64,000 nt of DNA from Halorarum salinum (lineage in GTDB: Archaea; Halobacteriota; Halobacteria; Halobacteriales; Haloferacaceae): contig NZ_CP058579.1 in NCBI RefSeq assembly GCF_013402875.1, positions 1,736,001 through 1,800,000 on the forward strand. Direction: 5' to 3'. The number at the start of each line of letters is the position of its first letter. Within the stretch, counting starts at the first letter, position 1. Below, in pieces: positions 34,778 through 58,708 of this stretch. Made by a program: the position numbers and the translations under genes. Under the pieces are notes generated by a model. That model was given only the letters and a program-made list of their open reading frames with translations. It had not been told where the DNA came from and made no database searches.

Positions 34778-34925
34778 TCAGGGGGTCGTCAGGAGGGCGC
34801 CGCTGCCGCCGACGATCAGTTCGAGTTCGTCGAACGACTGGGTTGCGTCGTTCAGCGACTCCTCGTTCGGGACGCCGTACAGGTCGACGTCGGTCACGCG
34901 GGTCACGTCGTCGGCTACGAGCGCC
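34778..34925 (-). pseudogene. C-terminal fragment of an unidentified protein
   Basis: A frame ending at 34778 reads VADDVTRVTDVDLYGVPNEE then SLNDATQSFDELELIVGGSG and ALLTTP. It looks like a genuine protein tail, acidic and in register with codon bias, but has no start of its own, since the upstream enolase gene ends at 34938. I cannot name the family. It is probably a leftover from a deletion. Confidence 0.35.
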
Positions 34926-34937
34926 TCCCGTATCTAA

Positions 34938-36071
34938 CTACGCGCGGTACCGGTCGAGCGCGTCCGCGTCGAGAGCCACGCCGAGCCCCGGTTCGCCCGG
35001 GATCGACACGCGGCCGTCCTCCGCGGCGAACGGTTCCGCGGCCAGTTCCTCGCGGAGCGGGTTCGACGAGCGGTCGAACTCCAGCCACGGCCGGCCCCGG
35101 AGCGTGGCGACGAGCTGGAGGCTCGCACCCAGACCGACGGGCGTCCCCCACACGTGCGGCACGAGCGAGACCCCGTGGTCGCGCGCCCGCCGCGCGATGC
35201 GGCGGGCCGGCGTCAGGCCGCCGACGATGCAGACGTCCGGCTGGGCGACGTCGACGGCGTGCGTCTCCAGCAGGCGGTCGAACTCGGCCGGCGCGTGACA
35301 CTCCCCGCCGGCGACGGGGACCTCGAGCGCCTCGCGTAGCTCCGCGTACCCCTCGATGTCCTCCGGCGGGACCGGCTCCTCGAACCACTCCACGTCGAGC
35401 GATTCGAGTTCGCGGCCGACCCGGCGGGCGTCCCGCCGGTCGTAGGCGTAGTTGGCGTCGACCATCACCGTCGTCTCCGGGCCGACTGCCTCCCGGACGC
35501 GGCGGACGAGTTCGACGTCCTCCCGGGGGCCGTAGCCGAGCAGTTCGAGGCCGACCTTCAGTTTGATCGCGCCGAGTTCGTTCGCGTTCGTCCGCGCCTC
35601 CGCCACGATGCGGTCGTACTGTTCCTCGAGGTCGTCGACGGGCTTGAAGTAGTGGCCGGTGGCGTAGGGGCGGATCGACTCGCGCCGCCGGCCGCCGAGC
35701 AGCGTCGCCGTCGACACGCCCTGGAGTTTCCCCGCGAGGTCCCACAGCGCGACGTCGAGGCCGCTGATCGCCGGCAGGGGAACGATGGTCTGGTACGTCG
35801 CCCGCCCCACGTCGTAGAGGCGGTCGTAGAGGCGCTCGACCTCGAGCGGGTTCTCGTCGACGACGTGCGGGGCGAGCACGGACTCGACGACCTCGCCGGT
35901 CCCCTCGACGGGCCCCCAGCACTCGCCCCACCCGACGGTGCCGTCGCTCGCCTCGACGCGAACCAGCGTCGCGGTCCGCTCGTCGACCCACGCCTGCGCG
36001 TAGCCGAACGGCTCGTCGGTCGGCGCGCACACGCCGATCGCCTCCACCGAGTCCACGGTAACGTCGTTCAT
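34938..36071 (-). CDS. Enolase-superfamily acid-sugar dehydratase, KLK singleton
   Basis: The 377-residue protein is a classical mandelate-racemase-group enzyme: AIKLKVGLEL (intact KxK), MVDANYAYD (Asp ligand), WFEEPVPPED (Glu), AGGECHA (Glu) and VPHVWGTPVG (His). It differs from the repeated KFD, KIH and KTK types in the window. Similar full-motif proteins dehydrate rhamnonate, fuconate or galactarate, so one of those is a reasonable guess. The start is ATG 36071 (MNDVTVDSVEAIG), with ttattag about 27 nt upstream. It is divergent from a truncated aminotransferase gene. Confidence 0.85.
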   Translation of the reverse strand: MNDVTVDSVEAIGVCAPTDEPFGYAQAWVDERTATLVRVEASDGTVGWGECWGPVEGTGEVVESVLAPHVVDENPLEVERLYDRLYDVGRATYQTIVPLPAISGLDVALWDLAGKLQGVSTATLLGGRRRESIRPYATGHYFKPVDDLEEQYDRIVAEARTNANELGAIKLKVGLELLGYGPREDVELVRRVREAVGPETTVMVDANYAYDRRDARRVGRELESLDVEWFEEPVPPEDIEGYAELREALEVPVAGGECHAPAEFDRLLETHAVDVAQPDVCIVGGLTPARRIARRARDHGVSLVPHVWGTPVGLGASLQLVATLRGRPWLEFDRSSNPLREELAAEPFAAEDGRVSIPGEPGLGVALDADALDRYRA

Positions 36072-36171
36072 TCGAGCGGACGTCGGCGGGGGGACTAATA
36101 ACCGTGTCCGATTCCATGGCAAGTGGTACCGGTGAACACTGTTTTGTGCTCGCTCGGCGAACTGGTCGCGC

Positions 36172-53079: not shown

Positions 53080-53607
53080 GCTCCTCCAGATGATCCATCT
53101 CGCTCCCGGACGGCGAGATATCGAGCGCCTCGACGCGTTCGGTCCGCACCTCACCGGCGTCCGGTACACGCCGGAGAAGGGAGGCCCGGCCGACGAGGTG
53201 CTCTGCTTCGACGAGGCGGACTTCCACGACGCGCTGGCGCGGACGATTATCTCGTGTTGGCCTGCCGCTGACCGTGACGACCCGCGGACTCGTCGGGCGG
53301 GCGGAGTTCGAGGCGCTCCCGCCGGAGGCCGTCCTCGTCAACGCCGGCCGTGGCCCCATCGTGGACACCGACGCGCTGACCGACGCGGTCAACGACGGCG
53401 ACATCCGCGGGGCGGCCCTCGACGTGACGGACCCCGAACCGCTCCCATCTGACCACGACCTCTGGCGGATGGGCAACGTCCACGTCACGCCGCACAACTC
53501 CGGGTACACGCCCCAGTACCCCCCGCGTCGCCGACGTCCTCGCCCGCAACCTCGCGCGGGTCGAGGGGACCGGGTCCTACGAGGACATCGAGAACCGGAT
53601 CATCTGA
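53080..53607 (+). pseudogene. D-2-hydroxyacid dehydrogenase remnant, several frameshifts
   Basis: Pieces in three frames line up as ERLDAFGPHLTGVRYTPEKG, DDYLVLAC, PLTVTTRGLVGRAEFEALPP then EAVLVNAGRGPIVDTDALTD, GAALDVTDPEPLPSDHDLWR, NVHVTPHNSGYTPQY and, after another shift, RVADVLARNLARVEGTGSYE to a stop at 53607. Catalytic Arg, Glu (substituted in TDPEP context) and His regions are recognisable, but the substrate domain and GxGxxG are gone. It lies just after the importer. Confidence 0.7.
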
Positions 53608-55061: not shown

Positions 55062-56127
55062 ATGGAAATCACCGAAATCGAGGGTTTCGCGGCCTCGATC
55101 CTCCTCGAGGAGCCGGTATCGTTCGCCACCCGGACCGTCGAGGAGCGGGACCACGCGATCGTCTACGTCCGGACCGACGAGGGTCACGAGGGTCTCGGCT
55201 ACTCGCTGGGGTACGGCGGCGCCAAACTCGTCGCCGCCGCCGTGCTCGCGCCGATGCTCGAGGGCGAGGACCCGCGGGACACGACGCGGCTCTGGCGGGA
55301 GATGTTCGACGGGACCGTCCGGATCGGCCGCAAGGGCGTCATGGTGCGCGCCATCCCCATTCTCGACATCGCGCTGTGGGACGTCGCCGGCAAGGTCCTC
55401 GACGTCCCCGTCTACCAGTTGTTCGGCGGCAAGCACCGCGACGAGGTACGCATCTACTGCGACTGCCATGCCGGCGAGGCGTTCGCGACGGACGCCGGCG
55501 AGTGGTAGCCGGCGTCCAACGACGCGTACTCGTTCGAGGCGTACGCCGAGGAGGCGGGCCGCGTCGCCGACATGGGCTTTTCCGCACCGAGGTTCGACCT
55601 CGACCAGCCGTTCGACAACCACCCGGACCCCCAAAACGGGCGGGTCTCGAACGCCGCCATCCGGCGGAAGGTCGACACCGTCGAGGCCATCCGCGAGGAG
55701 ATCGGCTCCGAGATCGACCTCGCGTTCGACATCCACTGGGACTACTCGATGGACAGCGCGAAACGGCTCTGCCGAAAGCTCGAACCGTACGACCTGATGT
55801 GGCTCGAGGACCCCTTGCCGCCGGAGAACGTGGAGGCCCAGCGCGAGATAACCCGCGTCTCGCCGGTCCCCATCGCCACGGGAGAGAACCGGTTCCGAGT
55901 CCACGAGTTCGAGGACCTGCTGTACGACTTCGGCGTCGACATCACCACGCCGGACCTCCCGACGTGCGGCGGGCTCGCCGAGTCGAAGGCGATCGCCAAC
56001 CGCGCCGAGGAGAACTACACCGCCTTCTCGCCGCACAACGCCCGTGGCCCCATCGGCACGATGGCCTGCGTCCACCTCGGGGCGTGCGTCCCCAACCTCG
56101 ACGTGCTGGAGTACCACGCGCTCGAGG
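55062..56127 (+). pseudogene. Enolase-superfamily dehydratase, KFD-like type, in-frame stop and lost 3' end
   Basis: The gene opens MEITEIEGFAASILLEEPVS and keeps VRIYCDCHAGE, but TAG at 55506-55508 interrupts it (GEW then stop). The same frame then continues through RFDLDQPFD, FDIHWDYSMD, WLEDPLPPEN, TGENRF and SPHNARGPIG. The catalytic Lys expected before FDLD is Arg (APRFDLD), so activity was impaired even without the stop. The 3' end is missing: after VPNLDVLEYHALE the sequence passes into the tail of another enolase gene in opposite orientation. Non-functional, except possibly as a fragment. Confidence 0.78.
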
Positions 56128-56260
56128 GCGAACGCGTTCGGGACGGTCGCCCAGACGTGGGCGCTCACGAGCGTCCCGACGGGGTTTGAGACGTTGTGCG
56201 GCGCGACGGGCACGTCGAAGGCGTCGGCGACGGTGGCGATCTTCCGGAACTCGCCGCGAC
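56121..56260 (-). pseudogene. C-terminal fragment of a second enolase-superfamily gene, inverted
   Basis: On the minus strand the sequence reads GEFRKIATVADAFDVPVAPH, then NVSNPVGTLVSAHVWATVPN and AFALE. These are the barrel strands with the His of PHNVSNPV found in the KFD group. The reading breaks at CTCGAG (56121-56126), shared with the + strand gene, so the two truncated genes meet tail to tail. No N-terminal part exists nearby. Confidence 0.72.
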
Positions 56261-56402
56261 GTTGGGAACCGTTGAAAGATTTCGGGTGAGGGAGGCGGAA
56301 CGCCGGTTCTCGTGGGGCGGACGTCTTAGTGAGGCCGACACGCATGCGACGGTCGCCCGCGTTCCCCTCCGTCGCCCGTTCTACCGCCATCGCCCGCACG
56401 TT

Positions 56403-57575
56403 CTAGTCGAAGACGCGCCCGCCGAGCGCGTGTTCCTCGACGTACTCCCAGTCGTAGGTGACGCCGAGGCCCGGCCCGTCCTGGACCGACACGTGCCCGT
56501 CGTCGACGGCGTCCATCGCGTCCGTGTAGCCGTCGACGTAGACGGGTGGCTCGACGTGTGGCACACCGAAGTCCGGGCCGACGAGGCCGAGTTCGTAGTA
56601 GTTGGTGTTGCGCGTCGCCGCCAGCAGGTGTCGCTGGACGGGCCCGGCGAGGTGATGCTCCACGTCGAGGCCGAAGCCCTCGGCGGCGCGAGCGCGCTTT
56701 ACCGCCCCCGTGATGCCGGCGTCCCACTCGGGGTCGGCCCGCGCGAAGTCCGTCGCCTCGGTCGCCAGGAAGTCCGTGTGCGGTTCCAGCCCCCGGACCA
56801 GTTCGGTCATCAGGAGCGGCGTCTCCAGTTGCTGGCGGAGCTTTCGGCTTGCGTGCCGTGAACGGGTGGCCCCCCGGAGCGGGTCCTCGTACCAGAGGAA
56901 CCCCTGTTCGTCGCAGGCCCTCCCCACCGTCAGCGCGTCGGCGAACGTATGGTACTCGCCGACGGGGTCCAGCATCAGGTCCATCTCGTCGCCGACCCGC
57001 TCGCCGACGGCGTGGACCGCCGCGACCTCGCGGTCGACGTCCCGGTCGTCGAGTCCGCCGATGGGGTGGATCTTGAACGCCCGGAATCCCCGATCGAGAC
57101 AGCCCTCGGCGAAGTCGGCGTACGCCTCCGGCGAGTCGAGGCCGCCCGCCTCGCTCCCGAAGTACGTGGAGACGTAGGCCGGGAACCGCTCGCGGTAGGT
57201 ACCCAGTAACTCGTGGATGGGAGCGTCGTAGTGCTTCCCCGCGAGGTCCCAGAGGGCGATGTCGACCGGGCCGATGCCCATCCGGTCGTACTTGCGGAGC
57301 GCGCGCTTCAGCTCGCTCCAGTGTTTCTCCCGGCGGAGCGGGTTCCTGCCCACGAGGTAATCGGCGATCATGTTCACCTGCGCGAAGCCTGGCGGGTTCC
57401 CGCCGACGTACTCGCCCGTCACCCCCTCGTCGGTGTGGATCCTGATCCCGTACGTGATCCGCTCGCGTGTCCGTCCGGGTTCGTAGACGAAGTCGAACCC
57501 GTGGGGATTTCTCGTGACGTTCTCCAACGGGTAGGCGAACTCCGTCGTCTCGATGCGCGTGATCGTCGGTGCCAT
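56403..57575 (-). CDS. Enolase-superfamily acid-sugar dehydratase, KIH type, most diverged copy
   Basis: The 390-residue protein aligns with the genes at 6975, 27100 and 33573 over its full length, but its active-site loops differ: FKIHPIGGLDDRD, MLDPVGEYHT in place of DPACEPE, WYEDPLRGAT in place of EDPYRDA, MTELVRG for QTEHVRG, and EHHLAGPVQRHL for EFHAPGPAQRQC. Metal ligands Asp, Glu and Glu are kept. A shift in substrate is likely. Start ATG 57575 (MAPTITRIETTEF). It is followed on the same strand, upstream, by the KTK-type gene. Confidence 0.84.
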   Translation of the reverse strand: MAPTITRIETTEFAYPLENVTRNPHGFDFVYEPGRTRERITYGIRIHTDEGVTGEYVGGNPPGFAQVNMIADYLVGRNPLRREKHWSELKRALRKYDRMGIGPVDIALWDLAGKHYDAPIHELLGTYRERFPAYVSTYFGSEAGGLDSPEAYADFAEGCLDRGFRAFKIHPIGGLDDRDVDREVAAVHAVGERVGDEMDLMLDPVGEYHTFADALTVGRACDEQGFLWYEDPLRGATRSRHASRKLRQQLETPLLMTELVRGLEPHTDFLATEATDFARADPEWDAGITGAVKRARAAEGFGLDVEHHLAGPVQRHLLAATRNTNYYELGLVGPDFGVPHVEPPVYVDGYTDAMDAVDDGHVSVQDGPGLGVTYDWEYVEEHALGGRVFD

Positions 57576-57619
57576 GAATCCGTCACTCCCGACTGGGGTA
57601 AGGGAGTTGTGGTGCCGGC

Positions 57620-58708
57620 TCAGCCGTCGAGTCGGTTCCGCTCGCGGGCGTCCGGGTCGAGCCGACAGCCGTGACCGGGTTCCTCGGGGAGGACGACGTG
57701 GCCGTCGCGGACGGTCGGCCCCGCGGCCAGGAGTGGCGAGGCGTCGTACTCCGGGATGTACTCCGCGTACAGGCCGTTGGGCGCGGCGCTGACGAGGTGC
57801 GCGCTGACGGCGTAGTGGACGTGCGGCGCGAACGGGACGCGCTGGCTCTCGGCCAGGTGGGCCGCGTTTAGGAGTCCCGTGACCCCGCCGCCGCGGACGA
57901 GGTCGGGTTGTGCGACGTCGACGGCACCCGCGCCGAGCAGGTGGCGCAGCCGCTCCGGGCGGTAGAACATCTCGCCCGTCGCGATGGGGACGCTCGCCCC
58001 CGCCGCGACCCGGCGGTAGGCGTCGACGTCGAACGCCGAGACGGGTTCCTCGACCCAGCCGACGTCCCGTTCGGCGAGGGCCGCGACCGCCCGCCGTGCC
58101 TCCGCGACGGTCCAGGCCTGGTTGGCGTCGACGAGCAGGTCGACGTCGTCCCCGAGCGCCGCCCGCAGGGCGTCGACCCGCTCGAGGTCGGCCGCCAGCG
58201 ACCGCCCGCCGACCTTCGTCTTGAAGGCCTCGAACCCGCGGTCGCCCTGTGCTGTGTGCCGTTCGACGAGGGTCCCCGCGTCCTCGCCCGCGTCGAGGCG
58301 CGAGCAGTAGGCCGGCACCTCGCGGTCCGTGCCGCCGAGGAGGCGGTAGAGCGGCACTCCCGCCGTCCGGGCTTTGAGGTCCCAGCAGGCCACGTCGACG
58401 GCCGAACGGGGGTGTGCGGAGAACCCGAGTTCGCCCGGGTAGTAGAGCGTCCGCCCGCGCATCGCCTCGCTGAGGGTCGTCGTGGCGAAGGGGTCGGCGC
58501 CGACCAGCAGGTCCGAGAACTCCCTGGTGTAGCGCGCGAGCAGGTCGGGCACGCGCCACGTGCTCATCCACCCGGTGCCCGTCAACCCCGCGTCGGTGTC
58601 GAGTTCGACGACGACCCAGTAGCGCTCCGTGACCGACGCCCGCGCGTCGCCGAGTTCCGTCTCCAGCGGCACGCGGAGCGCGTCGACCCGGACGTCGGTG
58701 ATCTCCAT
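57620..58708 (-). CDS. Enolase-superfamily dehydratase, KTK type
   Basis: The 362-residue protein has the same plan as the gene at 36939: LTGTGWMSTWRVPDLLARYT, GELGFSAHPRSAVDVACWDL, AFKTKVGGRS, LVDANQAWTV, WVEEPVSAFD, ATGEMFYRPE, QPDLVRGGGV and APHVHYAVSAHLVSAAPNG. The intact KxK and the His in the eighth strand suggest a normally active enzyme. It ends 44 bases before the KIH-type gene start on the same strand, so the two may be one operon. Start ATG 58708. Confidence 0.84.
   Translation of the reverse strand: MEITDVRVDALRVPLETELGDARASVTERYWVVVELDTDAGLTGTGWMSTWRVPDLLARYTREFSDLLVGADPFATTTLSEAMRGRTLYYPGELGFSAHPRSAVDVACWDLKARTAGVPLYRLLGGTDREVPAYCSRLDAGEDAGTLVERHTAQGDRGFEAFKTKVGGRSLAADLERVDALRAALGDDVDLLVDANQAWTVAEARRAVAALAERDVGWVEEPVSAFDVDAYRRVAAGASVPIATGEMFYRPERLRHLLGAGAVDVAQPDLVRGGGVTGLLNAAHLAESQRVPFAPHVHYAVSAHLVSAAPNGLYAEYIPEYDASPLLAAGPTVRDGHVVLPEEPGHGCRLDPDARERNRLDG

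Follow-up and report, generated by a model that had tools for sequence, protein, structure and literature searches.

The window analysed here is a 64,000-nucleotide stretch of the Halorarum salinum genome (NZ_CP058579.1, positions 1,736,001 to 1,800,000). It sits on the 4.02-Mb contig of a 4.26-Mb assembly of two contigs, with an estimated completeness of 99.83% and an estimated contamination of 4.8%. Two incomplete genes of the enolase superfamily lie tail to tail at a CTCGAG palindrome in the window. The reference for the comparisons was G001, a genome of the same genus from a separate assembly, and all deletion sizes are relative to it. The features at and around the site, named after the G001 genes A, B and X, are as follows.

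53123–53135, no strand: sister scar with a 13-bp shared run and a 2.0-kb deletion relative to G001 (comparison with G001)
55062–55382, plus: 5' part of gene A, which supplies cap-domain sequence to the hybrid (Pfam MR_MLE_N, E = 1.2e-16 on the 148-aa frame before the stop)
55368–55382, plus: A/B fusion point, the 15-bp ATCGCGCTGTGGGAC encoding IALWD (1165-bp deletion relative to G001)
55368–56126, plus: barrel part of gene B, truncated at the 3' end (Pfam MR_MLE_C, E = 4.1e-47 for 55572–56126)
55490–55517, plus: hairpin with a 10-bp perfect stem and an 8-base loop (55500–55507), the loop inverted compared with G001 B and giving TAG at 55506–55508
56121–56126, no strand: CTCGAG junction between convergent B and X, with a ~14.8-kb deletion (comparison with G001)
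56121–56253, minus: barrel piece of the enolase-superfamily gene X, lacking the rest of the gene at both the 5' and the 3' end (Pfam MR_MLE_C, E = 1.7e-9 for 45 aa)
56253–56254, no strand: second junction, ~4.6 kb absent relative to G001, lacking a shared run and weakly anchored on the right (18 of 40)
56403–57575, minus: enolase-superfamily open reading frame adjoining the X fragment (Pfam MR_MLE_N and MR_MLE_C), its 3' flank abutting the second junction

In G001 the three genes are complete open frames: A (387 aa; longest frame 1341851–1343014) and B (406 aa; 1340566–1341786) stand in tandem, followed after ~14.8 kb by X (1324837–1326099, 420 aa), which faces B in a convergent arrangement. 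The order and orientation of A, B and X are collinear with the pieces in the window, and the excess of G001 over the window at the three gaps is 1165, 14790 and 4623 bp. The block 56254–58708, beyond the second junction, is 90% identical to G001:C1:1318706-1321175. A second relative, the MAG contig L124 (QH_6_64_20), carries A, B and then four stretches of the interval in the G001 order, matching G001 1339153–1336625, 1332657–1331873, 1328885–1327673 and 1326384–1326098. The last of these is the 3' flank of X. A search of the final 276 bp of L124 did not find gene X itself, so that this contig is no witness for X in place; the undeleted arrangement is thus seen in G001 and partly in L124.

The closest NCBIfam models are galactonate dehydratase for B and X and archaeal arabinonate dehydratase for A, all with scores below the curated cut-offs; the intact B of G001 scores 249.9 against the cut-off of 311 of the galactonate dehydratase model NF010624. 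Among proteins of solved structure, the closest in sequence are 2qq6 to B and 5olc to A. The genome of H. salinum itself has many relatives of these genes, with 19 and 18 matches to the two pieces.

Searched against 60 relatives and aligned with G001, the plus-strand gene proved to be a hybrid of A and B. Its nucleotides 1–324 are 91% identical to G001:C1:1342622-1342954 in A, and its nucleotides 302–1064 are 93% identical to G001:C1:1340717-1341479 in B; in the protein alignment the A part is three residues shorter than G001 A. The two parts meet at ATCGCGCTGTGGGAC, a 15-mer; A and B of G001 share no longer exact match. Between its two G001 copies lie 1165 bp that are absent from the window, and both sides are collinear with G001. 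The fusion is in frame and lies ~15 residues ahead of the end of the Pfam cap-domain match. From 55062 the frame has a single in-frame stop, TAG at 55506–55508, and otherwise reads on to VPNLDVLEYHALE, with homology stopping at CTCGAG and ~35 final codons of the B barrel lost. The earlier note had described a plus-strand gene running to VLEYHALE and a minus-strand fragment AFALE...PHNVSNPV starting from the same CTCGAG, and the reading frames, the Pfam matches and the alignment with G001 bear out both. Its view that two paralogues are joined at a short shared sequence, with parts of both lost, also holds; however, the plus-strand gene is not the single family member that the note took it for.

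The stop lies in a hairpin whose loop has been flipped. In G001 B the sequence reads GACGCCGGC-TACCACTC-GCCGGCGTC, and the window has identical arms around GAGTGGTA, the exact reverse complement of the G001 loop. The unflipped form GGCTACCAC is also present in L087, L090 and L124, so the ancestral state of the loop between its perfect arms is seen in relatives as well as in G001. The predicted fold has an energy of −14.6 kcal/mol (z −3.7), which 2 of 200 shuffles equalled. When 22 blocks totalling 47,099 aligned bases were scanned for exact, ungapped reverse-complement patches of 6–40 bases with at least four differences, one patch was returned, the loop flip itself, and the control transforms (reversed only, complement only) gave none in the same bases.

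Codon comparisons with G001 showed 27 amino-acid-changing and 18 silent codons in the B part, a ratio of 1.5, whereas eight usable control genes range from 0.24 to 1.03. The A part (6 changing, 12 silent, 0.50) and the X fragment (8 changing, 11 silent, 0.73) are within the control range. Ten distinct control genes were taken and two were left out: 56403–57575, whose best match is a 71.5% paralogue (1.17), and 34915–36117, apparently in the wrong frame (11.0). With the B part alone in excess, the counts suggest that the decay is recent or uneven. They also bear on whether the hybrid could be a working new enzyme with an A cap and a B barrel, perhaps made by readthrough of the stop or by a start at the internal ATG at 55572. 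In favour, the reading frame is kept across the fusion, which lies near the cap/barrel boundary, there is only one stop, and an open reading frame of 205 aa begins at that ATG. However, the TAG is in frame, the final barrel codons are gone, the barrel KFD has become RFD, other residues common to the B relatives are also altered in the alignment, and the B part carries the excess of amino-acid changes. A functional hybrid is hardly credible on these grounds.

The minus-strand piece is 133 bp long, and its 56121–56248 portion is 86% identical at the DNA level to G001:C1:1325804-1325931, inside gene X. The G001 ends of B and X share CTCGA (5 bp), which in the window appears as CTCGAG (6 bp). At random junctions in the G001 region, a shared run of at least five bases is found in ~1% and one of at least six in ~0.4%. 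The runs at A/B (15 bp) and at B/X (5 bp in G001) are thus beyond chance, in contrast to the second junction, where the shared run is 0 bp. A special role for the word CTCGAG was considered and dismissed, because it is common in the window (63 copies compared with 46 ± 6.5 in 100 shuffles). The X 5' part is gone from ~56253, where G001 has the extra 4,623 bp.

The earlier note had explained the junction by foldback or inversion, with two paralogues recombining at the palindrome, and had suggested looking among relatives for an uninverted arrangement. The paralogues B and X do point at each other and the junction is a palindrome; in the family alignment only 15 nt separate their break points, a closeness that might come from a hairpin between opposed copies. 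However, in the relative that retains all three genes, B and X already face each other, and their order and orientation are those of the window. A plain deletion of ~14.8 kb would therefore give the junction without any inversion. Since CTCGAG is palindromic, it reads alike in both opposed genes and can serve as an ordinary direct shared run. Moreover, there is no inverted copy of adjacent sequence: the X piece matches the B of the window at 72% over 74 bp. Leu-Glu is present in both proteins, as the note had pointed out, but the two are not homologous: the FALE of X aligns with DVLE of B, five residues before HALE. A hairpin at a shared position was rejected on the same alignment, in which the two CTCGAG sites are five residues apart. 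The 15-nt closeness of the break points is perhaps a coincidence, and a hairpin-assisted deletion, instead of an inversion, is possible. Foldback or inversion itself is highly improbable. The tail-to-tail junction is best read, from the comparison of gene orders, as ordinary gene decay by deletion between convergent genes.

No copy of the lost halves turned up elsewhere. As the earlier note had suggested, the missing halves were sought in the genome of H. salinum itself. The A-3'/B-5' stretch of G001 has best matches of 74% and 82% at another locus (3698954 and 3701057), the X 5' part has a best match of 71%, and one 1.9-kb gene of the 14.8-kb interior has a best match of 74%. At 71–82% identity these matches are other paralogues, and these stretches appear absent from the genome. 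The B 3' end, the X 3' end and the remaining interior were compared within 160 kb around the window.

The losses extend over a wider region, from ~34.8 to 63.5 kb (34807–63476), which takes up 28.7 kb in the window compared with ~65 kb in G001. Eleven junctions, taken from 20 block boundaries, have window-side blocks that overlap or lie at most 9 bases apart. All eleven are at or inside the window edge, and one qualifying boundary outside the window (~64279/64283) was left out. In five of the eleven the shared run is 5 bp or longer (9, 13, 15, 5 and 11 bp) and in six it is 0–1 bp, whereas a run reaching 5 bp was found at 1 of 150 simulated junctions. The scar at 53123–53135 joins, head to head, the 3' ends of an aldo/keto-reductase-like gene (minus strand, named from the gene sequence without a family search) and a D-2-hydroxyacid dehydrogenase gene (plus strand), both of which have lost their 5' parts. 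At the junction 34807–34815, 17.2 kb are absent compared with G001, with a 9-bp shared run.

The occurrence of several junctions within one region might also be expected if the junctions were false joins made in assembly. However, shared runs of 5–15 bp are, in our judgement, short for a repeat-driven misjoin, and a genuinely dead gene would be expected to show the stop of the hybrid and the excess of amino-acid change in its B part. The assembly consists of only two contigs and has a high estimated completeness, though with the estimated contamination given above, and the separately assembled G001 carries a like A/B fusion at another locus. An assembly artefact is therefore very unlikely.

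The second A/B hybrid lies at G001:C1:2373124-2374347 (L054, 4125–5345). Its cap is of the A type (82%) and its barrel of the B type (65%), its break is just ahead of IALWD, after codon 105, and it bears a TAG of its own where another genome, G002, reads GAG. The matching locus of G002 is an intact tandem with flanks 85–89% alike. One motif was thus the site of two fusions, at different loci and independent of each other, within one genus. A tandem with A upstream of B on one strand is present in 20 of 40 named haloarchaeal loci (L087–L126), among which B is in pieces in L108, and in 16 of 30 loci of a second set. Hybrids were found in 1 of 49 loci, in which at least two organisms are present twice (L087/L059 and L090/L056), and in 1 of 30 loci of ~3.2 kb; these are L054 and the window itself, respectively. 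The idea of the hybrid as a standing gene family was dismissed on these counts. A 68-residue hybrid probe run against 392 genomes of the order matched the window at 94% and other sequences at no more than 73% among the matches listed (E cut-off 1e-22), which do not include G001 and in which diverged hybrids would not stand out.

Two further loci were noted. In Halarchaeum acidiphilum (L108, 4463–5641), tblastn finds the B that follows A as several pieces, and this B is probably another broken copy. In G145, a genome of another family, the A-B tandem (L149, 117–2499) has 86–90% protein identity to that of G001 and is nearer to it than several loci of the same family are; horizontal transfer is possible.

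Taken together, the site very probably consists of what successive deletions have left of dead genes, two remnants in all, in a decay linked to microhomology. The ancestral state would be that of G001, with A and B in tandem and X facing B from a distance of ~15 kb. Deletion of 1165 bp at the 15-bp IALWD sequence would have fused the A cap in frame to the B barrel. The 8-base loop of the hairpin would then have flipped and produced the TAG stop. A ~14.8-kb deletion at CTCGA(G) would have taken the last ~35 codons of B, the interval and the X 3' end, and a further loss of 4.6 kb the X 5' part. The order of these events, and the treatment of each gap as a single event, are our inference from the comparison, and parts of the G001 excess may be insertions in G001. 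For the short runs the mechanism would be microhomology-mediated end joining. The 15-bp run would stem from end joining, strand annealing or homologous recombination, and the flipped loop from template switching.

That A and B were fused in parallel at the same motif in two sister genomes suggests that deletions can be channelled into in-frame hybrids by conserved coding motifs close to domain boundaries. A broader claim, that haloarchaeal tandem A-B genes repeatedly recombine at IALWD, as an in-frame hinge near the cap/barrel boundary, and so yield cap-swapped hybrids, is unlikely though conceivable. If it were true, natural domain swapping would be a route to new sugar-acid dehydratases, and the window locus and G001:C1:2373124 would mark attempts at it that failed or lapsed. 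The locus is a clean case, dated by comparison, of the decay of a haloarchaeal cluster of sugar-acid enzyme genes by short-run deletions and a stop-making loop flip. Ordinary in kind, it gains a little from the in-frame fusions having arisen in parallel and from the stop made by the loop flip. Literature searches on enolase-superfamily cap chimeras, haloarchaeal galactonate dehydratases, archaeal tandem-paralog fusion by deletion and haloarchaeal sugar-acid pseudogenes found nothing relevant, by which no claim of absence from print is made.

In comparison with the enolase-superfamily sugar-acid dehydratases (mandelate racemase / galactonate dehydratase-like, PF02746/PF13378), both Pfam domains, MR_MLE_N and MR_MLE_C, are also found here. 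They occur in pieces, with the hybrid interrupted by its stop; the copies in the window are broken, and the scores stay under every listed NCBIfam cut-off. The deletions with short shared runs at their ends resemble end joining in Haloferax volcanii (PMC2700283, PMC7521656). The accessible text of PMC2700283 describes microhomology-mediated end joining as a main double-strand-break pathway of the wild type, with runs of 3–5 bp and deletions of 6–977 bp in a plasmid assay in this Ku-less haloarchaeon. That of PMC7521656 describes the pathway as turning active and causing deletions under strong self-targeting. In contrast, the losses here are natural and chromosomal, of ~1–17 kb compared with a sister species, and the pathway is one that we only infer; the shared runs are 5–15 bp at five junctions and 0–1 bp at six. 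The loop flip has its counterpart in the inversion of inverted-repeat spacers by template switching in yeast, where, in the accessible text of PMC8604942, the loop between perfect repeats likewise becomes its exact reverse complement. In comparison with the yeast case, the presumed template switch here is archaeal, involves an 8-base loop and yields a stop codon instead of amino-acid replacements.
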